IMG/VR virus record: IMGVR_UViG_3300028422_000919
Span: 124,001-188,000 of that record
DNA length: 64,000 nucleotides
DNA from: a virus
Reading direction: 5' to 3' (one strand)
Below the pieces are notes generated by a model, which worked only from the letters and a program-made list of their open reading frames with translations, was not told the DNA's origin and made no database searches. The position numbers and the translations under genes were made by a program. Every line of letters starts with the position of its first letter. The first letter of the stretch is position 1. This document shows, piece by piece, positions 25,854-47,642 of the stretch.

Positions 25854-27683
25854 TCAGGTGAGCCAGTCGAACTCGACCACGTAGCGGATTCGCTGGTAGT
25901 CGGGGGAGAAGATGATGTGCTCATCGTTCTCTAGCCCGTGCCCGTTATCTCCACCGACCCCGAAGACCGAGTCGGACTGGACCTGGGCCCCGCCACACTG
26001 ACAGGTCGTGGCCCCACCCCGGTTACCGTAGGAGCGGTAGGTGCCCTGCATGTTGTTCGGGCGGTGGCACTTGACACAGCTCTGGGGAGGGCTGCTCCAG
26101 GAGCCCGTCGAAGGCGCCCGGTAGGCATGCCCCATGATCATGTCCGTGACGAACATGAAACATCCCCGGTTCTGGACCCCGCCCCCACCCCCGCCGCTGT
26201 AGTAGCCTCGCCCCGTGTAGCCGTAGCTCTTCCGCCAGTCGGTGGCGAAGTAGATACCGTGTCCGAAATTGGCCCCGGTGATCTGGGCTCCCGGCAAGCT
26301 CTGAGGGAGCCGGAAATTAGTCCCCATGATGGGGGCGATGTTGACCGGGCGGGTGCCGTGGATGCTCAGGATGACGTTCGCCTGGGCGTACTCATCGGAG
26401 AGACCCGCCAGGTCGGTCCGGCGAGGTTGGAGATTGCCCCGGAGGGAGAACTTACCCTGGACACGGGCACCAACCCTTTGAACTTCCGCCAGGAAGCGGG
26501 CGTCTCGATCGGGACGTTCCACAGCAAACAGAGAACGGACCTTGGGAGACTTGGATCCCATGTAACCGTGCCGGTTGTTGCTCATGTGGACGAAAGCATC
26601 CCAGAGCCACTTCCCCTCGGTCCCGTTCGGATCGATCCAGCGGAGCTGAGCGTTCAGCAGGGAATCCGGATCGATGGACTGGACCGGAGTTGTCGTCGTG
26701 AAGTCCTCGGTCGTCAGAGCGGTCTCGAAGGCGTCGAGGTCCGCCTGGAGGGACAGGAGGTTGCCTGAGTTCAGGATGGCCTGCTCGTCGGTCCATCCCG
26801 TCCGGGGGATAGGACGGGGAACCAGACTGTTGACCGTGGTCGAGATGGTCCGCAGAGCGGAGTCCTTGACCTGGGCGGCCACCAGGGCATCGTTGTCCCG
26901 GAAGTTGGTGCCCACGGCGGCCAGTCGCTGAAGGGCCGCCGGGATGAGCTGGTCTCGAACCTTCGAGATGGCCCGCATGGTCGGAGTCACACCGCTGGCC
27001 TGGGACAGGGAGCGGGTGTACGTCTGGGTGCCGCCGACGAGGTCCCTGGCGAGTTGGACGACCTCGGGCTGCCACGACTTCAGAGACTTGACCACAGCGG
27101 GGGCGGCCGTCTTGACCGGCGTGGGAGCAGGCATGGCGACCCCGGACCCGTCTTTGACGGTCAGCACGTCGGGGAGCCCCTTCTCACGAGTTGCTAGGTC
27201 CTGGATGAGATAGCCGTCTTTGCCAGCCTTGGCACACCACAGGTCGATGCCCCCGATGCTCTTGCACTCCAGACGGGCCAGGTTCTTGTCTCGGACCTGC
27301 CCAGCGAACCAGGAACGGGCCTGGTCGAGGGTGGCCCCCACGGTGAACTGGAAATCCTGGTAGGCCCCCGTCCAGGAGCCGTGCTCCCAGCTCTTCCCCG
27401 GACGGGAACGACCCCACTCGAAGTAGGCGTGGTACTGGCCCGTCTTCTTGTCCCGCACCACCCCGGCGTGGTAGCCCTTGGCGTTGTTCGCTTCCCCGAA
27501 CTGGTTGACGCACACCATGTCCACGAGCCCGATGTCGGGGTTGGGCATGGAACCGTTCAGGTACCCATTTTCGTCGATGGCGGGCTTTCCGACGTACTCG
27601 AAGTCGTCAGGAGAGCAGCCTGCGGGGAGCTGGCGCTTGCCCAACTTGTCGTTGGTCCCAGGTTTCTTGACGGCGATGGTCAT
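25854..27683 (-). CDS. WGR-domain PARP-like ADP-ribosyltransferase
   Basis: The protein should transfer ADP-ribose from NAD+ to a protein or nucleic-acid target. The N-terminal 130 residues contain a WGR-like domain (HAYFEWGRSRPG), the middle resembles the helical PARP regulatory domain, and the last 180 residues are a PARP catalytic domain. The His, Tyr and Glu of the H-Y-E signature are visible: SIHGTRPVN (near 443), GHGIYFATDWRKSYGYT (near 477) and NDEHIIFSPDY (near 587). Between them a zinc-ribbon-like insert (CVKCHRP ... CQCGG) replaces the usual loop and is unusual. At 609 residues it is complete. It has its own promoter. An ADP-ribosylglycohydrolase is encoded at 44722-45627. Confidence 0.9.
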   Translation of the reverse strand: MTIAVKKPGTNDKLGKRQLPAGCSPDDFEYVGKPAIDENGYLNGSMPNPDIGLVDMVCVNQFGEANNAKGYHAGVVRDKKTGQYHAYFEWGRSRPGKSWEHGSWTGAYQDFQFTVGATLDQARSWFAGQVRDKNLARLECKSIGGIDLWCAKAGKDGYLIQDLATREKGLPDVLTVKDGSGVAMPAPTPVKTAAPAVVKSLKSWQPEVVQLARDLVGGTQTYTRSLSQASGVTPTMRAISKVRDQLIPAALQRLAAVGTNFRDNDALVAAQVKDSALRTISTTVNSLVPRPIPRTGWTDEQAILNSGNLLSLQADLDAFETALTTEDFTTTTPVQSIDPDSLLNAQLRWIDPNGTEGKWLWDAFVHMSNNRHGYMGSKSPKVRSLFAVERPDRDARFLAEVQRVGARVQGKFSLRGNLQPRRTDLAGLSDEYAQANVILSIHGTRPVNIAPIMGTNFRLPQSLPGAQITGANFGHGIYFATDWRKSYGYTGRGYYSGGGGGGVQNRGCFMFVTDMIMGHAYRAPSTGSWSSPPQSCVKCHRPNNMQGTYRSYGNRGGATTCQCGGAQVQSDSVFGVGGDNGHGLENDEHIIFSPDYQRIRYVVEFDWLT

Positions 27684-28459: not shown

Positions 28460-28972
28460 TTAGTTCTCGTACTTGGCCTTCAGGGAGGCGAGTTGTTCTC
28501 GCTCCCTCTTCTCCGCAGCTTCCTTCTGGCGGGCATCCTCTTCGGCCTGACGGGCTTCCTCGGCCATCTTCTCGGCTTCCGCCTTGGCCTTGATGTCCGC
28601 CAAAACCTCCGACTGGTCGAGCCAGAGGTAGGAGGTGGGAAACCGGAAGTAGTGCCGGTCGTCCCCGCAACACCCCCGGCCGCAGGCGGGGGCCTCGGCC
28701 TGGATTTCGACCTCGTCGCTGTTGATCTCGATGGTCTTGATATGGGGGCGATATTGGAACAGGTCCTGCCACTCGGGATCGGCGGCGTACCGCTTCCAGA
28801 AATAGCTCTGGGCCAGGTTCTCCATCACGTCCTTGCTCTCCACCAGCAGGTGGATCAGGCTTTCGGATAGGTTGCTTTCGACGTACTTCTGGAGGGTTTG
28901 GTACACCTTGCCGTTGGCGTCCTCCCAGTAGGTGTCACCGTGATCATTCGTCTTCTTGGTCAGCCCTAGCAT
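28460..28972 (-). CDS. Hypothetical protein with Cys cluster and coiled coil, 170 aa
   Basis: Not recognised. A cysteine cluster (PACGRGCCGDDRHYF) sits after a helical N-terminal half, and the C-terminal 60 residues are a charged coiled coil (EKMAEEARQAEEDARQKEAA). ATG 28972 overlaps the TGA of the Pth2-like gene. It is the last gene of a three-gene unit closed by a strong hairpin. Confidence 0.7.
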   Translation of the reverse strand: MLGLTKKTNDHGDTYWEDANGKVYQTLQKYVESNLSESLIHLLVESKDVMENLAQSYFWKRYAADPEWQDLFQYRPHIKTIEINSDEVEIQAEAPACGRGCCGDDRHYFRFPTSYLWLDQSEVLADIKAKAEAEKMAEEARQAEEDARQKEAAEKREREQLASLKAKYEN

Positions 28973-29881: not shown

Positions 29882-29907
29882 CTACCCTATTCTCGGAAAT
29901 CGTTACC
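29882..29907 (-). promoter_or_regulatory. Phage promoter motif, GGTAAC-N15-GGTAG
   Basis: GGTAAC at 29902-29907 and GGTAG at 29882-29886 on the minus strand. The first block meets the TAG of the gene above. The leader to the next start is long (about 170 bases). Confidence 0.6.
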
Positions 29908-30728
29908 TACTCAGAATCGTTTTCCGCCACCACGAGGCCTCCTGCATAGCCCCGCTGGGCGTCCCCGTAAACCCGGTCGAGCCGGCCTTCATAGATGTCA
30001 GGACTCCCAGACAGGAACGCCTCAATGAACTCGGAAGTCGTGTGCCCGGCGATCCGAATCCAGACTTCTTCTCCCATCTGAATCGGGGCCATGACGGCCA
30101 AGCGCTGCTGGAGGGCGGCCTCCCGCAGCAACAGCCACTCCTGCTCGTCGATGCTGTGGCCAACCTTGCGGTGGAGGCGGGTGCCATAGAGTTCCACCCA
30201 TTCCGCCCGCATAAACCGAGACTGCCATTTGAAGATGCCCCGCATAACCTCTTTCAGATCCTTGTTGGAGGACCTGGCGATCTGCTCAGCGGAAAACACC
30301 ATCACGTCGTAGGAGGCCACCCCAGGACACTCGTCGCTGTAGGCAGCATGGGGGCAGTGGTCCGTGGCAGCGATCAGACGCAGACCCTCAGGGGGCTTGT
30401 CGCCCCCGCCGATGGCATCCCAAACCTGACCGAGGCTCGAAGCCTCCCAGAACTCTGCCGGGGGTCGTCCGTATCCGGGATCCCCCGGATAGTGGTGGTC
30501 CACGAAGTGGAGCGTTTCCTTGCCCGCCAGGGGGGAACACTCCACCCAGAGCTGCCCTTTCTCCACCTCGGGCCAGTCGGCTTGGTACATGTTGGAATAG
30601 GTGACGGGCTTGCCGTCCTTCTTCGCCCAGAGCACGTTCAGCCTCTTGCTAACGGCGAGTCGGGCGATGGCTTCCATCTCGGGGTCGATCACCCCCAAAA
30701 CGAGGGTGGCAGGCTTGTCAGTAAGCAT
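29907..30728 (-). CDS. DHH-phosphoesterase-like protein, 273 aa
   Basis: The middle holds LHFVDHHYPGDPGYG, the DHH motif of the RecJ/nanoRNase phosphoesterases, followed by LIAATDHCPHAAYSDE, which may supply the next metal-binding Asp/His. The usual N-terminal DxD motif is not clear, so the assignment is tentative. The C-terminal half is helical and unassigned. If correct it would degrade short nucleotides or signalling dinucleotides. It lies downstream of the PspA-like gene, with an 82-base gap, and could share its promoter. It ends in TAG. Confidence 0.45.
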   Translation of the reverse strand: MLTDKPATLVLGVIDPEMEAIARLAVSKRLNVLWAKKDGKPVTYSNMYQADWPEVEKGQLWVECSPLAGKETLHFVDHHYPGDPGYGRPPAEFWEASSLGQVWDAIGGGDKPPEGLRLIAATDHCPHAAYSDECPGVASYDVMVFSAEQIARSSNKDLKEVMRGIFKWQSRFMRAEWVELYGTRLHRKVGHSIDEQEWLLLREAALQQRLAVMAPIQMGEEVWIRIAGHTTSEFIEAFLSGSPDIYEGRLDRVYGDAQRGYAGGLVVAENDSE

Positions 30729-30810: not shown

Positions 30811-31599
30811 TCAGAGGGTCTTGGCGGCGTTCACGTACTCCGCATCGGTGACCGAATCCTCCTCGATCCTTTGCCTCAAGGCGAGGAGGGAGGCCATCGG
30901 CTGAGGCTCGACGGGAATAGCGGCCACCATGTCGAATTCGGCGGCGAACTCCGACAGGGCATCCTGTTCCAGAACTTCGTGCTCGACCTCGGACATCACC
31001 CAGGCGTTGCCGGAGTTGGCCTCGGCGGCGACTCGGGTGCGGCCCTGGGCGTTGGTGATCTGCTCGTTGAGGCTCTTCTCCAGGTCGGAGAGCCCCTGCC
31101 CGTCCGGGTTGAACGTCAGCTCGGAAGCCATCTCCGAGAGCTTGGCCTGGGCGTTTGCCATTTCCGCCTGGGAGATCTTGCCCCTGACCGTTTCGATCTT
31201 CGTCATCGACTGCTTGACGAAGATGTCCCTCTGACGGGTGAGCTGCTGGAACTGCTCTTCGGCGGCCTGGAGCTGGCGCTCGTTCTCGGTGATGTTGGCC
31301 TGTACCATCTTGCGTTGGCCGGCGAGTTGGCCGGCAAGGGTGGCTTTGCCAGCCTTCATGAGGGCCTTGATTCGGATTACGAGTTGGGCTTCTTTGGCCC
31401 GATCGTCCTGAAGCTGAAGCTCCAGGCGGCGGCGGAAGGCATCCTGTTTCGCCAGATTCTGGTTGAACGTCGCCTGGTTCTTCTGAAACTCCTGGATGTG
31501 CGCATCCAGAAGGGCCTTCGGGTTCGACTTCTCGATCCCGCCGATGAACAGGCCGAGGAACCCTCGGATGAGTCGCATGATGCGTCGGAAGAAACTCAT
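30811..31599 (-). CDS. PspA/IM30 (ESCRT-III superfamily)-like protein
   Basis: The N-terminus has the amphipathic membrane-binding helix of PspA (SFFRRIMRLIRGFLGLF). It is followed by long antiparallel helices (QEFQKNQATFNQNLAKQ, LVIRIKALMKAGKATLAGQ, ITENERQLQAAEEQF), the helical hairpin typical of PspA/Vipp1. These proteins bind and remodel the inner membrane and keep the proton gradient under stress. At 262 residues it is slightly longer than bacterial PspA. Its own promoter is 61 bases upstream, and the TPM-domain membrane protein gene lies just above it. A role in membrane protection or remodelling during infection is inferred. Confidence 0.82.
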   Translation of the reverse strand: MSFFRRIMRLIRGFLGLFIGGIEKSNPKALLDAHIQEFQKNQATFNQNLAKQDAFRRRLELQLQDDRAKEAQLVIRIKALMKAGKATLAGQLAGQRKMVQANITENERQLQAAEEQFQQLTRQRDIFVKQSMTKIETVRGKISQAEMANAQAKLSEMASELTFNPDGQGLSDLEKSLNEQITNAQGRTRVAAEANSGNAWVMSEVEHEVLEQDALSEFAAEFDMVAAIPVEPQPMASLLALRQRIEEDSVTDAEYVNAAKTL

Positions 31600-31659
31600 G
31601 GATGTTCTCTCCTTGTCCCTTTTCAGTGATGGGCCCTAGCCGGGGCCGGGATGGAAGCT

Positions 31660-31685
31660 CTACCCGACCCCGGGTGATCGTTACC
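31660..31685 (-). promoter_or_regulatory. Phage promoter motif, GGTAAC-N15-GGTAG
   Basis: GGTAAC at 31680-31685 and GGTAG at 31660-31664 on the minus strand, upstream of the PspA-like gene. Confidence 0.65.
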
Positions 31686-31696
31686 TGGTTGGGGGT

Positions 31697-34318
31697 CTAC
31701 CAGCCGTCGGAACCACCGAAGCTGCCACCGCCCCCGCCGAAGCTGCTGGAGCTGCCCCAGGAGCTACCCCCGCCGAAGCTGCTGGTGCTGCCCCAGGAGC
31801 TGCCTCCTCCGAAGCTGCTGGTGCTGCTGTGGTACCTGGACCGGCGGCGACGGTCCTCTTCTTCCTGCCGCCGCCGACGGTGCCGGGCCTCCTCCTCCCG
31901 GCGGCGCTCTTCCTCCCGGCGGAGGCGGGCTTGCTCTTCCTCGTACCTCTGCCGGGCGGTGCGAACCAGGCGGTCCCACCCCTTCTCCTGGGAATCGAGG
32001 GACAGCAGGAGAGCAGCGTAGTCCACCAGACCCCGGCCGACGAGGGGTGCCTGGTAGCTGAGGTTGGCAGTTCCCCCGAATTCCCGGATCTTGTGGGCCT
32101 TGCTGGACCGCAGGGACTCCATCTGGCTCAGCTTCTTCTCGAAGGCAGCCTTGCGGCGGTCGAGGGTCTTGCAGTGGGCGCTTGCATCGTTGAAAGAGGC
32201 CTTGGCCTTCTCCCAGGACCGCTGGGCGTCGGAGAACAGCCGGCAGGCGTCCAGGTGCCGGTTGGCGGCCACAGCCTCCTCGGCGGAGGTAAACTCGATG
32301 GAAGCCCCAGACTGGGCGATTTCACCGGCCTCGATGTTCCGGTTGGCTTGGAGCATGTCCGTGTGGACCTGACGGGCGGAAGACACCGCCAAGTTGGCGG
32401 CTCGGAAAGCCAGGGCTGCGTTTTGACGTGCGTCCTCAGCACCCTTGCGAGCAGCGGCGATGCCACGGACGGCGGCCTGAATCTCAGCCACCTGCCCCCG
32501 CACCTTGCGATACAGGGTCTCTACCCTGTCGGCTTGTACCTGAAGGGCCTTGATGTCCTTGCTGGAGGCGGCTGTCTGGAGCATCGCTTGGAAGCGGTCT
32601 TCAGCACTCATGGCGGTGTCGAGGGTGACCTTCGGATCGTTCTTCGGGTCCACCCTGGTGTCGATGTCCTCGTACTGCGTGACCCGGGACTTCTCCACTC
32701 TCTGGATGATCTCGGAGACTTCCTGGATGCGAGCCAGGATGGCGGTCTCCATCTCGGCCAGCTCTTCCAGCCGCTTCAGGTAGGCCAGAGGATCCGCCCA
32801 GCGGACGGAGTTGATCGTCTGGTAGAAGGCGGCATCGGACTCGTCGTCTCCGTAGAGGGGGTGGTCATCCACCCAGGTGTTGGGCATACCAGCCGCCTCG
32901 CACATCTTGAACAGACGATCCATCGTGCGGTGCGGGAAGGCCTTCTCTGCTTCCTGCATCCGTGCCTCGGCGGCCCGCTTAAGAGTGTCCCAGCCCTCCT
33001 TGGCTTTCCGGAACGTATTCGCCTGCTCGGCGGCGAACTTGATTGGGTCCACGGTGATCTTGACGGTTTCCCCGCCGAACAAGTCGGACGAGTTGACTTC
33101 TGCGGTGTCCATCGAGAAAGGCTCGGCAAGGGCGGCCAAGGCATCCCGCAGAGGCTGAACCTTGAAGAAAGTGGCAGTCCTGCCTAGTTCCTCACAGCGG
33201 CGGACGTGCCGTTCCAACCCAAGGATGTTCATGTAGATGGTGTCGATGGAGGAAGTGACCCAGTCGTACAACTTGCGGGTCTCCCCCACTACGTCATCGA
33301 AGGCGACCAAGTCCTCACGGTCTTTGAAATGGAATTCGGTGTACTTGGCCTGAGCATGGGACAGCTTCTCGTCCCACTCCCTGAGTGCCGTCTCCAGGTT
33401 TTCCCGAAGCACGGTGAACAGGACAAAGCGGCGGTAGAGCAGCCGCAACAGGAACCCAAGGACAATTGGAAAAGCCAGGATCGCCAAAGTCAGCAGCAAG
33501 ATTTTGAGGATCAGAGCAAACTGGGCCTGCTGAACGGAGAGCCGCAATGGCTCCATGCTGGTGTTCAGCTCCTGGGTGGCCTGGATAAGGGTGTCGGGGT
33601 CCGTAGAGTCTTTCACCGCCAGGGCCTGCTGGTAGGCGGCCTCGTAGGCCCCCACTCCCGTCGAAGGGTGATGTTGACGGGCGGCCAGCAGGCCTTGGGC
33701 CTTCCCGAGCATCTCCAGATAGTTTGTTTGAGCGGCCCGGAATTTTCGGGCAGCGATCTGCACAGGGTCAATCTGCGGCCAGACCCGGGAGATAGCGGCC
33801 CGGAGGGTGTTGATGATTCCCCCCTTCAAATCCTGGGGGCTCTTCGCCACCTTCGGGATGAAGTATGCCTTCCGGTCAGAACTCTGGGTGGAATGGGGGT
33901 ACACGGCCCCCAACGTCTCCGGCATGGAGAATCCCACCTGGCAGAAATCTTTGCCCGAACGCCGGTAAAACGGCTTTCTGTCGCAGTCCGAGGACCAAGC
34001 CACGGTCAGGATCAGGAACCGCTCGGAGTCCAAACCCTGGCTGGCCCACTTGGTGGCGAACCCGTCCCCGAGGATGTGAGGCTCGATGCGGTAACCGTCC
34101 GAGTTGACCAGCACGACATAGCTGGGGATCGGCAGGGTGCGGGCGAACTCCTCTACGGCTTGGGCCTGGGGGATCCCAAACCCTGTGGGGAAGAACCCCT
34201 CCGGCGAGCTGTAGACGTGAACGCCCTGTTGGAACTCCGGGGTCGCCGGGGCCGCTTGGGCGAGGGGTGTGGCAGCCAATACGGCCAAGGCTAGGAAGCT
34301 CCGGATGAACCGTTTCAT
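31697..34318 (-). CDS. TPM-domain membrane protein with Gly/Ser-rich tail, 873 aa
   Basis: A signal peptide (FLALAVLAATPLAQA) precedes a TPM-like domain (residues about 45-190, with YVVLVNSDGYRIEP and RFLILTVAWSSD). One or two membrane helices near residue 265-295 (ILKILLLTLAILAFPIVLG) separate this periplasmic part from about 450 cytoplasmic residues of charged helices. The end is a repeated Gly/Ser/Phe/Trp tail (FGGGSSWGSTSSFGGG) like those of YgcG-type TPM proteins. It probably senses or organises the envelope with the PspA-like protein next to it. It ends in TAG. Confidence 0.75.
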   Translation of the reverse strand: MKRFIRSFLALAVLAATPLAQAAPATPEFQQGVHVYSSPEGFFPTGFGIPQAQAVEEFARTLPIPSYVVLVNSDGYRIEPHILGDGFATKWASQGLDSERFLILTVAWSSDCDRKPFYRRSGKDFCQVGFSMPETLGAVYPHSTQSSDRKAYFIPKVAKSPQDLKGGIINTLRAAISRVWPQIDPVQIAARKFRAAQTNYLEMLGKAQGLLAARQHHPSTGVGAYEAAYQQALAVKDSTDPDTLIQATQELNTSMEPLRLSVQQAQFALILKILLLTLAILAFPIVLGFLLRLLYRRFVLFTVLRENLETALREWDEKLSHAQAKYTEFHFKDREDLVAFDDVVGETRKLYDWVTSSIDTIYMNILGLERHVRRCEELGRTATFFKVQPLRDALAALAEPFSMDTAEVNSSDLFGGETVKITVDPIKFAAEQANTFRKAKEGWDTLKRAAEARMQEAEKAFPHRTMDRLFKMCEAAGMPNTWVDDHPLYGDDESDAAFYQTINSVRWADPLAYLKRLEELAEMETAILARIQEVSEIIQRVEKSRVTQYEDIDTRVDPKNDPKVTLDTAMSAEDRFQAMLQTAASSKDIKALQVQADRVETLYRKVRGQVAEIQAAVRGIAAARKGAEDARQNAALAFRAANLAVSSARQVHTDMLQANRNIEAGEIAQSGASIEFTSAEEAVAANRHLDACRLFSDAQRSWEKAKASFNDASAHCKTLDRRKAAFEKKLSQMESLRSSKAHKIREFGGTANLSYQAPLVGRGLVDYAALLLSLDSQEKGWDRLVRTARQRYEEEQARLRREEERRREEEARHRRRRQEEEDRRRRSRYHSSTSSFGGGSSWGSTSSFGGGSSWGSSSSFGGGGGSFGGSDGW
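31700..31830 (-). repeat. Coding repeat of the TPM protein tail
   Basis: Two to three imperfect copies of a unit encoding SSSFGGGSSWG-type residues (a 36-base period is visible between 31745 and 31820), ending in a run of glycines and GGSDGW. It is part of the coding region and not a CRISPR or integration repeat. Confidence 0.6.
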
Positions 34319-34385: not shown

Positions 34386-34402
34386 TACTTGACGGAACGC
34401 AG

Positions 34403-34477
34403 TGCGCCCGGGGGGACTCGAACCCCCGCATCACCAAGTTTTAGAGACTCGGGCTCTAACCTCTGAGCTACGGGCGC
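34403..34477 (-). tRNA. tRNA with anticodon CUA (amber-reading, suppressor type)
   Basis: A complete cloverleaf: acceptor GCGCCCG/CGGGCGC, D arm GCTC/GAGC, T arm GGGGG-TTCGAGT-CCCCC, discriminator A, no encoded CCA. The anticodon stem CGAGT/ACTTG (one G-U pair, extended by C26-G44) encloses a seven-base loop CTCTAAA, which puts C-T-A at positions 34-36 after T33, so it reads UAG. The variable region is seven bases, longer than usual. It has its own promoter (34516-34542) and is isolated from other tRNAs. The charged amino acid cannot be read from the sequence. About a quarter of genes in the window end in TAG. Confidence 0.82.
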
Positions 34478-34656: not shown

Positions 34657-35085
34657 TCAGGTGGGCTCTAGGCGGGGGAGTAGCACCACTCCCCCCCAGT
34701 ACCTCTTCATGGTGCGGAGGGCCGCCTCAGACAGAGGTTTCGCCACGTAGCTGTTCGCTCCCCCCTGATACCCTCGAAGGATGTCCGTATCGGACTTGCT
34801 GGCCGTCATGACGACCACGGGGATATGGCTCAACAGAGGGTCCTTGCGGATCTGGGCAAGAGCCTCATGTCCCCCCATCCTTGGCATCTTCAAATCCAGT
34901 AGGATCATGTCGGGCAGGGTTTTAGAGGGGTCCCTCAGCCTCTCCAGCAATTCCACTCCATCCTTGACCCTCTCCAGCTTGTTCGGACTCTGGCACTCGT
35001 CGAAGCTGTCAGCTATGAGCATCCAGTCTTCATCGTCATCTTCGGCAAAAAGAAGCAGCGGGTTGCGTTTTGAAGCTGTGAGCAT
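34657..35085 (-). CDS. Response regulator, single receiver domain
   Basis: A free-standing REC domain of 142 residues of the Rcp1 type. The acidic pocket (FAEDDDEDWML), phosphoacceptor Asp (ILLDLKMPRMGG), Thr (VVMTASKSD) and Lys (YVAKPLSE) are present, so it should be phosphorylated. There is no output domain. The ATG at 35085 is chosen over a longer start at 35118 that overlaps the kinase gene. It lies four bases downstream of a histidine kinase gene and is its likely partner. Confidence 0.92.
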   Translation of the reverse strand: MLTASKRNPLLLFAEDDDEDWMLIADSFDECQSPNKLERVKDGVELLERLRDPSKTLPDMILLDLKMPRMGGHEALAQIRKDPLLSHIPVVVMTASKSDTDILRGYQGGANSYVAKPLSEAALRTMKRYWGGVVLLPRLEPT

Positions 35086-35089
35086 GGGA

Positions 35090-36253
35090 TCAATCCACCT
35101 TTCTCTTTGGGAGGCCAACGTGGAACGTGGCCCCTTCTCCGGGCATAGCCTCGCAGTCGATCCAGCCTTGGTGACGATCTAGAATCTTCTTCACCAGTGC
35201 CAGACCGATGCCCGTGCCCGGATAGTCAAACCGGGTGTGAAGCCTCTCGAAGAGCTGGAACACCTTGTCTTTGAATGCCATGTCGAACCCGATCCCGTTG
35301 TCCGACACTGAAATCACCCAGTCCTCGTCGGTCTCCTGGGCGGTGAACTGGATCAAGGGCACCCTGTCGGGGTGCCGGAACTTGATGCTGTTGCTGATCA
35401 GGTTCTGAAGCACGGTCCGCATCTGGTAGCGGTCTGCCCAGACGGTAGGTAGGTCCTGTGCCAAAACCCGGGCATTGGCCTGTTCGATGGGGATGGCCAG
35501 GTCTTCCAGAATGCTGCGGAGGATCTTGTTGAGGTCCACTGCCTCAAAGGGGTCTTCCAGCCTCCCCACCCGGCTGTAGGACAGGAGGTCATCCATCAAC
35601 GACTGCATGCGCTCCGTGGCGTTCAACATCACGTCGATATATGACTGCCCCTTGTCGTCCAGCACTTCGGCGTACTTCTCCTTGAGCCTTTGGCCGAAGG
35701 CCCTCACTTTGAGCAGGGGTTCTCGGAGGTCATGGCTGGCAGCGTAAGCGAACTGACGTAGCTCATCGTTGGACAGTTGAAGCTCTTCCGTCCGGGCCCT
35801 CACTAGAGCTTCCAAATCCTGGACATTCCCTCGATGCTCCGTCACATCCCGTACCAGGACTAGGCACTCGTCCTCATGACTGCGGGCGAACCGAGCCTCG
35901 AACACGGAATTAGGATGATTGGGGACCTTGAACTCCCAGGTGATTACCTCTCCAGTGTCCATCGCTTGGAGGGCTTTATGCAGGGTGGCGTTTGCGAATT
36001 CCGGCCTGCCTACATCGAGAACCCGCCGGCCGATAACGTTCTGGTGATCCGCCAAGGGGGAGGCATTCAGCCCCGGCGCCATGTCGGCATAGAACCCTTC
36101 TCGGGTGATGATGCAGATCAGGTCGGGAGAGGCAATGCGGAGGGCATCCAGACGACCGGGATCATTGACTCGGCCGTAAGAGGGATCCTGCTGGCACCGA
36201 TTCAGAAACGGACAGCTCTTGCCCTGCAGGCACCAGTCGGGAGAACTGGACAT
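35090..36253 (-). CDS. Soluble PAS histidine kinase
   Basis: A full transmitter in 387 residues: a PAS-like sensor (about residues 40-145) after a Cys-rich N-terminus (WCLQGKSCPFLNRC), the H-box AASHDLREPLLKVRAFG, the N-box LQNLISNSIKFRH, the G1 box VSDNGIGFDM, the F box VFQLFERLHTRF and G2 box PGTGIGLALVKK. Nothing essential is missing, so it should autophosphorylate. It has no membrane helix, so the signal is probably cytoplasmic; the cysteines could bind metal or sense redox state. It is close to phytochrome-type kinases. It is encoded between two receiver proteins, one with a membrane helix. Confidence 0.93.
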   Translation of the reverse strand: MSSSPDWCLQGKSCPFLNRCQQDPSYGRVNDPGRLDALRIASPDLICIITREGFYADMAPGLNASPLADHQNVIGRRVLDVGRPEFANATLHKALQAMDTGEVITWEFKVPNHPNSVFEARFARSHEDECLVLVRDVTEHRGNVQDLEALVRARTEELQLSNDELRQFAYAASHDLREPLLKVRAFGQRLKEKYAEVLDDKGQSYIDVMLNATERMQSLMDDLLSYSRVGRLEDPFEAVDLNKILRSILEDLAIPIEQANARVLAQDLPTVWADRYQMRTVLQNLISNSIKFRHPDRVPLIQFTAQETDEDWVISVSDNGIGFDMAFKDKVFQLFERLHTRFDYPGTGIGLALVKKILDRHQGWIDCEAMPGEGATFHVGLPKRKVD

Positions 36254-36257
36254 GCCC

Positions 36258-37013
36258 TCACCCTACACTCTTGAGCGCCCGGATGGCTTCGACATCCACC
36301 ACCTGGACCAGGAGGGTTAGAAGAACCACGATGGTGATCAAACCCAGGAACAACATAACCGAAGCGACAGGGTGCAATGTGACCCATTCGGCCGTGTCCC
36401 GGACCCTATCCCAAGGGGTCTTCTTGATATTCTTGAGGATCTCTTCCTTTTGCTGGTCCAGCTTGACATCCAAGCGGCCGAACCCCTCTTTGAACTCGGA
36501 CCTCAGCTCACTTAGCTGAAAGGCAGTGCTGGTCTGAGCGGACGCACCCTCTCGGGTAAGGGATACTAGCTCCTGAACCTGGAGACCCACCCCTCCTGAT
36601 TCCGAGCCGTTTCGGATCTGCCTCTCATGTAGCCCGATGGCGTACAGGCAGGTCCGCTCCAGGAGGTCAGACGAGAAAGTCCCCTTCTCCAAGAATTCCG
36701 CCACCCCCGCCTCCAGAGCTTCATCCTGGAGACGGCGGTCCCCGTGGCTGGTGATAAGCACCACGGGGATGTGAAAATGCAGTCGCACCATCTCGGACAG
36801 CAGATCCATTCCGGACTGGTCGGGGAGACGATAGTCAAGGAGCATCACGTCGTAGCGGTGCTTCTTGACCTTCTCCAGGGCGGCGGCGGCGGTTTCGACG
36901 GCATCCACGCCAAACTTGGCCCGCTTGGAGTCATCGAGCAGGTCGATGACCAGCCGGGCGTCGTCCCGGTCGTCCTCAACCAACAGCACTCGAACAGTTG
37001 CGGGCGGGGGCAT
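36258..37013 (-). CDS. Membrane-anchored response regulator, receiver plus C-terminal helix
   Basis: An N-terminal REC domain (about residues 8-125): LLVEDDRDDARLV, MLLDYRLPDQSGMD, VVLITSHGD and EFLEKGTFS carry the conserved Asp, Thr/Ser and Lys. A coiled coil follows (EFKEGFGRLDVKLDQQKEE), and then a C-terminal membrane helix (VASVMLFLGLITIVVLLTLL). No known output domain is present. The regulator is therefore placed at the membrane, an unusual architecture. ATG 37013 has GGAGG eight bases upstream. It is the first gene of the three-gene two-component operon. Confidence 0.88.
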   Translation of the reverse strand: MPPPATVRVLLVEDDRDDARLVIDLLDDSKRAKFGVDAVETAAAALEKVKKHRYDVMLLDYRLPDQSGMDLLSEMVRLHFHIPVVLITSHGDRRLQDEALEAGVAEFLEKGTFSSDLLERTCLYAIGLHERQIRNGSESGGVGLQVQELVSLTREGASAQTSTAFQLSELRSEFKEGFGRLDVKLDQQKEEILKNIKKTPWDRVRDTAEWVTLHPVASVMLFLGLITIVVLLTLLVQVVDVEAIRALKSVG

Positions 37014-37160
37014 GTCTCGAACCTCCAAAAACAGCAGGACCCTCCTAAGTTGGGGCCGCTACCACGTATGGATTATCGAGCATCTACCATTCTCGGGGCC
37101 GACTTCACGATAGTGGTCCCTAGTCCCCCATCTTCTGGCCAGTGTTGTGATCCCTCACAG

Positions 37161-45686: not shown

Positions 45687-46851
45687 GGCTGAGGTCTCTA
45701 CGGCGGGGATCCGGCGGAGGGGCGCTCGGCCCACCCGGCACCATCGAGAGGGATGCGTGAACCGTCCCCAGGTTCTCGTCAGTGTACCGGGTGCCGGCCT
45801 GACGGGCGGAGAGAGCCTGGGTGAACGTGTCGTACTGACTGGTCACCTTGGCGACCGCCCCCAACATCACATCTACTACCCGACGCTGGTCGTGCAGCGG
45901 GAGGACATGATCCGATCCCAGAACCCGATTCCAGTACCCGTCGATATCGTAAGAACAGGATTTGACATAATAGTTGTGGTCTGCAGTGTGGGCCAGAACG
46001 GTGAACACTTCCCCCTTGCGCCGGAGGCAGGAGAACGTGTCCTTAGCCGTGTCCAGCTCCTCGTCTTTGCTGATCCCGACCCCCTGCAAACAGTAGCGGC
46101 TCGCCATGCTCTCGGCACCGGCCTCGTCGGTGATAAAGAACGTGAAGACGTGTTTGGCCGACCCAGTGTCCACGGCGTGCAGGAGCCAGTGGGCGACGAT
46201 CTCCGGGCTCTCTTCACCGTCCCCCCCACCCGAGGCCTCGGTGTTCAGGGCCTCCAAATGGTCGTCGAGAAGGGGTCCGCTGGCGAAGTCGATAACCTCG
46301 ATCACGTCACCGTACTTCACATCGCCGTATGTGATGAACAGGATCTGAAGGTCATCCCCCAGGAACTTCTGGGCCTCCCCGAACATCAACGGGAGGCGAC
46401 GGAAGATCTCGGGAACCCAGGACCGGATAGACCCAGTCACATCCACGACGACCTGGATGACGGCCTTAGCCGTGCTCTTAAGCGTCTTGCCGTGGGGCCT
46501 CCGGTTGAAGGAGTGCGGCGGCACCGGGACGTGGTTATGCTGCCAAACCACAGAAGCGGCAGGCTTAGGGGCGGGCTTCGGCGGCGCCTGAACGGCAGGG
46601 CTAGGGTTCCACGCCCTGGACGCCTGGTCCTTGACAGCCTTATCCTTGGCAGCCTTGTCTTTGCACCCCCAGCACAGATCACCGCTGTAGTTCACCTCCT
46701 TGCCACAGGAGCAGCGGTAAGTAGGGGCTGGGGTGCTATAACCTCTCCGGGCTCGGCTGTAATCAGTTCTGCTGTAGATATCCTCGCTGGAGTCACTCCG
46801 ATCACGATAGTCACGTCGGTCACTGCCGCCCCATCCAAAGGATCCACTCAT
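45682..46851 (-). CDS. Zinc-ribbon and von Willebrand A-domain protein
   Basis: The N-terminal region has CSCGKEVNYSGDLCWGC, a four-Cys zinc ribbon. A Pro-rich linker leads to a vWA domain (about residues 135-330) with the MIDAS signature VVDVTGSIRSW and an FITDEAGAE segment. vWA proteins coupled to Ser/Thr kinases occur in TerY-type and other regulatory systems. Here the gene overlaps the kinase gene by four bases (ATGA). Its partners are probably the kinase and a target bound by the metal site. Confidence 0.85.
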   Translation of the reverse strand: MSGSFGWGGSDRRDYRDRSDSSEDIYSRTDYSRARRGYSTPAPTYRCSCGKEVNYSGDLCWGCKDKAAKDKAVKDQASRAWNPSPAVQAPPKPAPKPAASVVWQHNHVPVPPHSFNRRPHGKTLKSTAKAVIQVVVDVTGSIRSWVPEIFRRLPLMFGEAQKFLGDDLQILFITYGDVKYGDVIEVIDFASGPLLDDHLEALNTEASGGGDGEESPEIVAHWLLHAVDTGSAKHVFTFFITDEAGAESMASRYCLQGVGISKDEELDTAKDTFSCLRRKGEVFTVLAHTADHNYYVKSCSYDIDGYWNRVLGSDHVLPLHDQRRVVDVMLGAVAKVTSQYDTFTQALSARQAGTRYTDENLGTVHASLSMVPGGPSAPPPDPRRRDLSR

Positions 46852-47642
46852 CGGTCCCTCCACTGCTCCTCGCAGCTCTCTCGCCCCCACACATCCATAC
46901 GGATGTGGTACAGCTCTCGCCGTACATCATCCGCCGAGGGGGGTCTCTTAGCCGGGTCTCGTGCAATCATCTGCTCCAACAGATCAGCCAGGGGCTCGAC
47001 CATGTCGGAAGGCACGGTTCCCTTGTGAATGTCTCCCCCGGCCAGGGCAATACCTACCTTGCCGACGGAGTAGATGTCCGACTCAGGAAGAGGTGGGAAC
47101 CCCTGCTGGAACTCAGGAGCCATGTAGCCAGGGGTTCCCCCTTTGGCCTTCGTCTTCTCATTGGGTTCTAGCGTTGCCATACCCAGGTCTACCAGGGTGA
47201 CCTGGTGATCCTCGATGTCGAGGATGGCGTTGGCCGGCTTGATGTCGCAGTGGACGATTCCGTGCCGGCGGTGCAGATAGTCCAGAGCACCCAAGACCCG
47301 ATCCAACACCCAGCAGATGTGCTCGTCCGCCACAGGACCCCGGGTTTCCAGGTGCTTGTCTAGGGGGGTCCCCGGAATGTAGCTCAGGACCATGATCTGG
47401 CCGATGTCTCCACCCACCTCGAAGTAGTCCAACAGGCTGGGGAACTGGAAGTGGCGGAGCTTCGCCAACAGCTCCGCCTCCTGGCGGAACATCCTGGTGA
47501 ACGGATCCTTGTGGGTCTTCTCCTGTTTGATGACCACAGGAAGACCCCTGCCGAGGATACAATGCCGCCCTAGATACACGTCTCCGAAAGCACCCCCTCC
47601 GAGCTTTTTACGAATCTCCCAGCTTCCGATGACGTGTCCCAT
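46848..47642 (-). CDS. Hanks-type serine/threonine protein kinase
   Basis: A whole kinase domain in 264 residues: the Gly loop KKLGGGAFGDVYLG, lysine in VVIKQEKTH, catalytic loop IVHCDIKPANAI, the DFG-equivalent VDLGMATLE (Asp kept, Phe to Leu), and the APE region YMAPEFQQGFPP. No membrane segment or sensor is attached. It should phosphorylate the vWA partner or host proteins. The ATG at 47642 has GGGGAG upstream. It is coupled to the vWA gene, and the gene at 47740 and CoaD-CoaE precede it. Confidence 0.93.
   Translation of the reverse strand: MGHVIGSWEIRKKLGGGAFGDVYLGRHCILGRGLPVVIKQEKTHKDPFTRMFRQEAELLAKLRHFQFPSLLDYFEVGGDIGQIMVLSYIPGTPLDKHLETRGPVADEHICWVLDRVLGALDYLHRRHGIVHCDIKPANAILDIEDHQVTLVDLGMATLEPNEKTKAKGGTPGYMAPEFQQGFPPLPESDIYSVGKVGIALAGGDIHKGTVPSDMVEPLADLLEQMIARDPAKRPPSADDVRRELYHIRMDVWGRESCEEQWRDR

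Follow-up and report, generated by a model that had tools for sequence, protein, structure and literature searches.

A PspA-family protein beside a putative TPM-fold membrane protein in a huge phage

Described TPM and PspA systems and the phage locus

PspA takes its name from its induction by phage and, to our knowledge, PspA encoded by phages has hardly been studied. In bacteria, a TPM protein is a conserved partner of PspA, and such partners may act as phosphatase or as assembly factor (PMC11237479). In particular, a two-hybrid test showed YdjH of B. subtilis to interact with PspA, the membrane foci of PspA are lost without YdjH, and YdjH was proposed as the membrane anchor of PspA (PMC8581546); the initial annotation's placement of both protein types at the envelope agrees with a partnership, and a likely anchoring role, already documented in bacteria (PMC11237479, PMC8581546). 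The B. subtilis operon was also reported to be activated by infection with phage SPP1 (PMC11153139). In phages, a pspA-like gene is already known, having been mentioned beside terD in a preprint on gut (Jug) huge phages (PMC12363816), and the Ter operons of jumbo phages were proposed to form sub-membrane structures from TelA and a vWA protein, in a survey from which the words TPM, PspA, and LemA are all absent (PMC7824862). In the literature we found no phage reported to carry PspA and TPM as a pair.

The pair described here lies in the window, a stretch of 64,000 nucleotides that corresponds to positions 124001-188000 in a virus record of 402,383 bases (a 402-kb huge phage; identifier given as IMGVR_UViG_3300027985_000918). 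Both open reading frames are on the minus strand with ATG starts: the gene of a 262-aa PspA/IM30 family protein (30811..31599) lies 97 bp downstream of that of an 873-aa protein (31697..34318), and the GC content is even across the two. The phage setting assumed at the outset was supported by the 402-kb virus record, by its large terminase (right part of the record, L019:7059-9056), and by related huge phages; a NAD-dependent DNA ligase, a thymidine kinase, and further genes usual for large phages lie within the window. A second huge phage with the pair (IMGVR_UViG_3300009031_000221, 536 kb; hereafter G017) carries it at locus L085.

Like the YdjH-type partner (PMC11237479), the 873-aa product is a putative TPM-fold membrane protein with a low-complexity/coiled-coil part, encoded next to pspA. 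However, compared with pspA-ydjGHI, the pair is phage-encoded, the predicted cytoplasmic arm is much larger, the TPM domain appears diverged beyond profiles, and the SPFH (band-7) partner was not found; the PF01145 (SPFH) profile matched nothing in the window's phage or G017, whereas it matched in 14/14 control genomes. The protein also resembles TPM proteins of the YgcG type (PF04536), which may or may not be accompanied by LemA and include those of other huge phages, in its predicted signal peptide, TPM fold, transmembrane segment, and Ser/Gly tail ending in W, but it lacks the canonical motifs NNG and GxGxE, and PspA instead of LemA is encoded beside it (no LemA was found in the window's phage or G017). 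The gut Jug phages share a pspA-like gene and a similarly huge genome, but there the neighbour is TerD and TPM is unmentioned (PMC12363816), whereas TerD (PF02342) gave no match in either PspA-TPM phage. Similarly, the Ter operons of jumbo phages offer a proposed sub-membrane protective structure and a vWA protein, one of which lies near the G017 pair, but our phages lack TerD, and the Ter system as it was described includes neither PspA nor TPM (PMC7824862).

The PspA-family protein and its putative TPM-fold neighbour

The initial annotation called the 262-aa product PspA-like, and this was upheld by the PF04012 (PspA_IM30) profile, which matched at E 2.9e-11 and 43.8 bits, above the curated cut-off of 33.9, with residues 4-214 of 262 aligned to profile positions 3-206 of 220 (nearly the whole model). 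By this family membership, the protein is assigned to the ESCRT-III superfamily. The membrane-binding helix that had been noted was recovered by calculation as a predicted amphipathic, cationic N-terminus (residues 2-19; hydrophobic moment 0.69, charge +4), compared with a moment of 0.51 and a charge of 0 for the helix of E. coli PspA. No PHROG family matched the protein better than E 0.05, and neither the PspA of the window nor that of G017 had a tblastn match among 50,697 phage records.

The 873-aa protein begins with a signal-peptide-like stretch (about residues 1-24), followed by the putative TPM-fold domain (about 25-190), a single hydrophobic stretch near 260-301, and, past this, a helical arm (about 300-820), an Arg-rich part, and a Ser/Gly tail ending in W. 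Thus, the Gly/Ser tail of the initial annotation is present; of the exported protein with membrane helices, the export part agrees with the signal-peptide-like start, and hydropathy gives one hydrophobic stretch that is possibly a hairpin. In the G017 homologue it is a single segment.

Sequence profiles did not recover the TPM-like domain that had been proposed. The protein had no significant match in Pfam, PHROG, or NCBIfam; the PF04536 (TPM) profile found nothing in the window's phage, with matches in 10/14 control genomes; and in hhalign comparison with nine TPM sequences, the window N-terminus ranked only 43 among 303 proteins of the phage. Because a profile match is lacking, we call the protein TPM-fold and not a member of PF04536.

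Structure prediction was more favourable, by way of the homologue. The domain of the G017 protein was modelled without templates and with the window row as sole other sequence, which gave a helix-strand-helix-strand-strand-helix order at a mean pLDDT of 59. When this model was compared with solved chains (VIA), ranks 1-14 were all TPM-type, with Z from 11.3 to 6.7, and the first unrelated folds followed at Z 5.3 or less. These matches include 5anp, 7tbr, 2kw7, 8c7i Psb32, BA42, AtTLP18.3, and cg2496, as well as a subunit of the mycobacterial respiratory supercomplex and LMTP1, both of which we take to be TPM-type. Foldseek alone was weaker (best E 0.013), yet placed a TPM domain at rank 1, and in a viral structure library a COG1512 phage protein stood at rank 1 and a protein named TPM at rank 4. 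A single-sequence model of the window's own N-terminus was uninformative and had no TPM-type match. These results support a TPM fold in the homologous G017 domain, as a low-confidence model, and it is through the homologue's domain, not the window's own, that the suggestion of a TPM-like domain was sustained (Z 11.3 versus 5.3).

When the full-length profile was aligned with eight phage TPM proteins, colinear matches were obtained in three regions: the N-terminus (E 0.003), the part just after the transmembrane segment (E 0.015), and the C-terminal arm and tail (E 2e-14, a value inflated by low complexity). The motifs W..G..G.NNG and G.G.E, invariant in four phage TPM proteins, do not occur in the window protein, which keeps only the W..(x)G part (KWASQG). 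As judged from sequence, the putative TPM domain is diverged beyond profile recognition.

At least four further published records of huge phages encode canonical TPM proteins: LR745208 (485 kb), LR745206 (635 kb), LR756504 (636 kb), and LR756501 (735 kb). The TPM proteins of these other huge phages show the order signal peptide, TPM, transmembrane segment, helical arm, and Ser/Gly tail; those of the last three records are 538-744 aa long, with a long arm and a tail ending in W. A LemA gene lies just upstream of the TPM gene in LR745206, and a weakly LemA-like neighbour was seen in LR745208. A scan of IMG/VR yielded 24 TPM contigs, not all of which are counted as phage genes because some are short or possibly contain host DNA. 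The 'phage' record CAKLQH020000003, also with a TPM gene, was set aside as likely bacterial DNA, with ordinary bacterial genes around.

A second huge phage with the pair

A terminase profile gave 57 related loci, and the contigs concerned were searched for homologues. One clear homologue of the 873-aa protein was obtained, in G017, with 29% identity over 840 aligned positions (E 1e-98), and the predicted cytoplasmic arm (about 550 aa) is partly conserved between the two phages. The G017 PspA is 39% identical to that of the window and is encoded about 1 kb from the TPM gene on the opposite strand; PF04012 itself did not match this homologue. The search for the same pair in other phages, as the initial annotation had advised, thus returned one further phage, in which both homologues again lie close together. 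A third gene is common to both clusters: the 170-aa Cys-motif protein of the window (28460..28972, minus strand; motif CGRGCCGDD) has relatives at L085 of G017 by tblastn, was matched solely in G017 among 45 related records, and is matched by neither Pfam nor NCBIfam.

When viral contigs were scanned by profile and motif, the pair proteins were recovered solely from these two phages, and a scan with W..DHPL.GDD, a conserved motif of the predicted cytoplasmic part, gave no relative beyond them. Single-protein pattern scans and tblastn over viral contigs, phages, plasmids, and species genomes, which depend on short, nearly exact peptides and may overlook more distant relatives, returned the phage itself only, and a two-row profile scan of species genomes gave no relative. 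The pair is sporadic among related phages, although these absences are soft because many of the records concerned are fragmentary. The two PspA-TPM phages do not form a sister pair in the terminase tree, where each groups with other phages; either the pair was lost many times or it moved between phages.

Two further observations concern related genes. A vWA-domain protein (PF13519; 812-829 aa) is 50% identical between the two phages, with its gene at L017:11063-13552 (minus strand) in the window's phage, about 160 kb off the pair, and at L085:12018-14456 (plus strand) in G017, close to the TPM gene. In the related 512-kb phage G048, the region L086:4742-9350 (minus strand) encodes a 345-aa protein with transmembrane segments, part of which weakly resembles PspA (PF04012 E 2e-5, below the cut-off), next to genes for a substrate-binding/OmpA-like protein and for the permease and ATPase of an ABC transporter.

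Possible roles of the pair and neighbouring genes

We proposed, with moderate confidence, that the pair is a phage version of the TPM-PspA envelope module of bacteria, in which the 873-aa protein would anchor and regulate a PspA coat and this coat would keep the inner membrane sound or remodel it during infection. Because the protein has a predicted signal peptide and one transmembrane segment, it would be exported and cross the inner membrane by one transmembrane helix, with the TPM-fold domain on the outer side and the long helical arm and low-complexity tail in the cytoplasm. It would anchor the phage PspA to the membrane and regulate it. The phage PspA would bind the inner leaflet through its amphipathic helix and polymerise like ESCRT-III, and the pair may seal or stabilise the inner membrane, and with it the proton-motive force, during a long infection in which the huge phage would keep its host alive. 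Since SPFH was not detected in either phage, the large arm may replace it, or a host SPFH protein may serve. The basis for this reading is the PF04012 match, the TPM fold of the homologue, the conservation in two phages, the shared third gene, the like architecture of TPM proteins in other huge phages, and the bacterial precedent, including the activation reported on SPP1 infection; counting against it are the failure of profiles on the TPM domain, the pLDDT of 59, the opposite strands in G017, the absence of SPFH, and the restriction to two phages. As to purpose, we rank membrane upkeep in a long infection first, the exclusion of rivals second, and the shaping of membrane for the phage's own structures third. 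As to the initial annotation's suggestions of protection against pore-forming abortive-infection proteins and of delayed lysis, no lysis or defence genes were tied to the pair, and PADLOC matched neither PspA nor the 873-aa protein.

Superinfection exclusion, unlikely in itself, is the best placed of the alternatives: a TPM-PspA coat, perhaps with the vWA protein, would alter the inner membrane against DNA delivery by rival phages, as a sub-membrane barrier comparable to the Ter proposal, and would protect the host during pseudolysogeny. The vWA protein common to both phages and its position near the TPM gene in G017 are consistent with this, as are the TelA and vWA structures proposed for jumbo phages (PMC7824862) and the pspA-like gene next to terD in gut huge phages (PMC12363816); however, TerD is absent from both phages, and the vWA gene of the window's phage lies far from the pair. 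Next in probability, and rather doubtful, is a membrane-remodelling machine of the phage's own, in which the ESCRT-III-family PspA and a TPM anchor that has diverged, perhaps joined by the Cys-motif protein, would make a phage-specific membrane structure or barrier and not merely copy host repair.

Third, and improbable, the pair may be unrelated passengers, two host-derived envelope genes adjoining by chance and having no joint function. The sporadic distribution and the opposite strands in G017 would fit, but both genes are intact and close, together with a third shared gene, in phages of separate terminase groups, and the same association is known in bacteria. Somewhat lower still we place construction in lieu of maintenance, by which the pair would bend or scaffold host membrane for phage replication or virion-assembly sites; PspA belongs to the ESCRT-III superfamily (PMC8281802) and forms tubular assemblies (PMC11746142), and the arm is unusually large and partly conserved, but related phages manage without the sporadic pair, and no link to structural genes was seen. 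Very unlikely is a counter-defence role, in which the phage PspA would replace host PspA as the conjugation partner of a CBASS cyclase and keep the cyclase inactive, since, although in a Bacillus test system PspA was the exclusive linkage partner of a CBASS cyclase, which according to the authors' proposal is thereby held inactive until infection (PMC11153139), the conserved TPM partner is left unexplained, the window has no CBASS link, and cyclase-PspA linkage was shown for one system only.

Taken together, the results suggest that some giant phages maintain or reshape the host inner membrane during infection. A compact phage pair with no detectable SPFH makes the TPM-PspA link directly testable, and the presence of TPM in several distant huge phages, beside PspA or LemA-like genes, points to envelope care as a recurring theme of very large phages.

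Several neighbouring genes were also recorded. A tRNA reading a stop codon adjoins the TPM gene in both phages, at 34402-34477 (minus strand; anticodon CUA) in the window and at L085:6474-6563 (minus strand; anticodon UUA) in G017; both TPM genes end in TAG, which is the stop in 76/386 called genes of the window's phage, and the other 29 tRNAs of this phage are grouped in two arrays, one at about 9-14 kb and one at about 46-57 kb. Readthrough of the TPM gene by the adjoining suppressor tRNA is unsupported, because the extension peptides of the two phages are dissimilar. Directly upstream of the pair, at 34657-37028 (minus strand), lies a two-component set of a response regulator, a PAS-histidine kinase, and a second response regulator whose C-terminal part has a hydrophobic segment; we rejected it as a Psp regulator, as it has no counterpart in 17 kb around the G017 pair. 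Downstream of PspA, a 273-aa protein (29907-30728, minus strand) carries a DHH-like motif (VDHHYPGD) and has no Pfam match, and a 609-614-aa protein (25854-27683, minus strand) has a PARP catalytic domain (PF00644) at its C-terminus. Finally, the product of 46848-47642 (minus strand) matches many PADLOC kinase models (mad6, PD-T4-6) and is likely a phage-carried Ser/Thr protein kinase.
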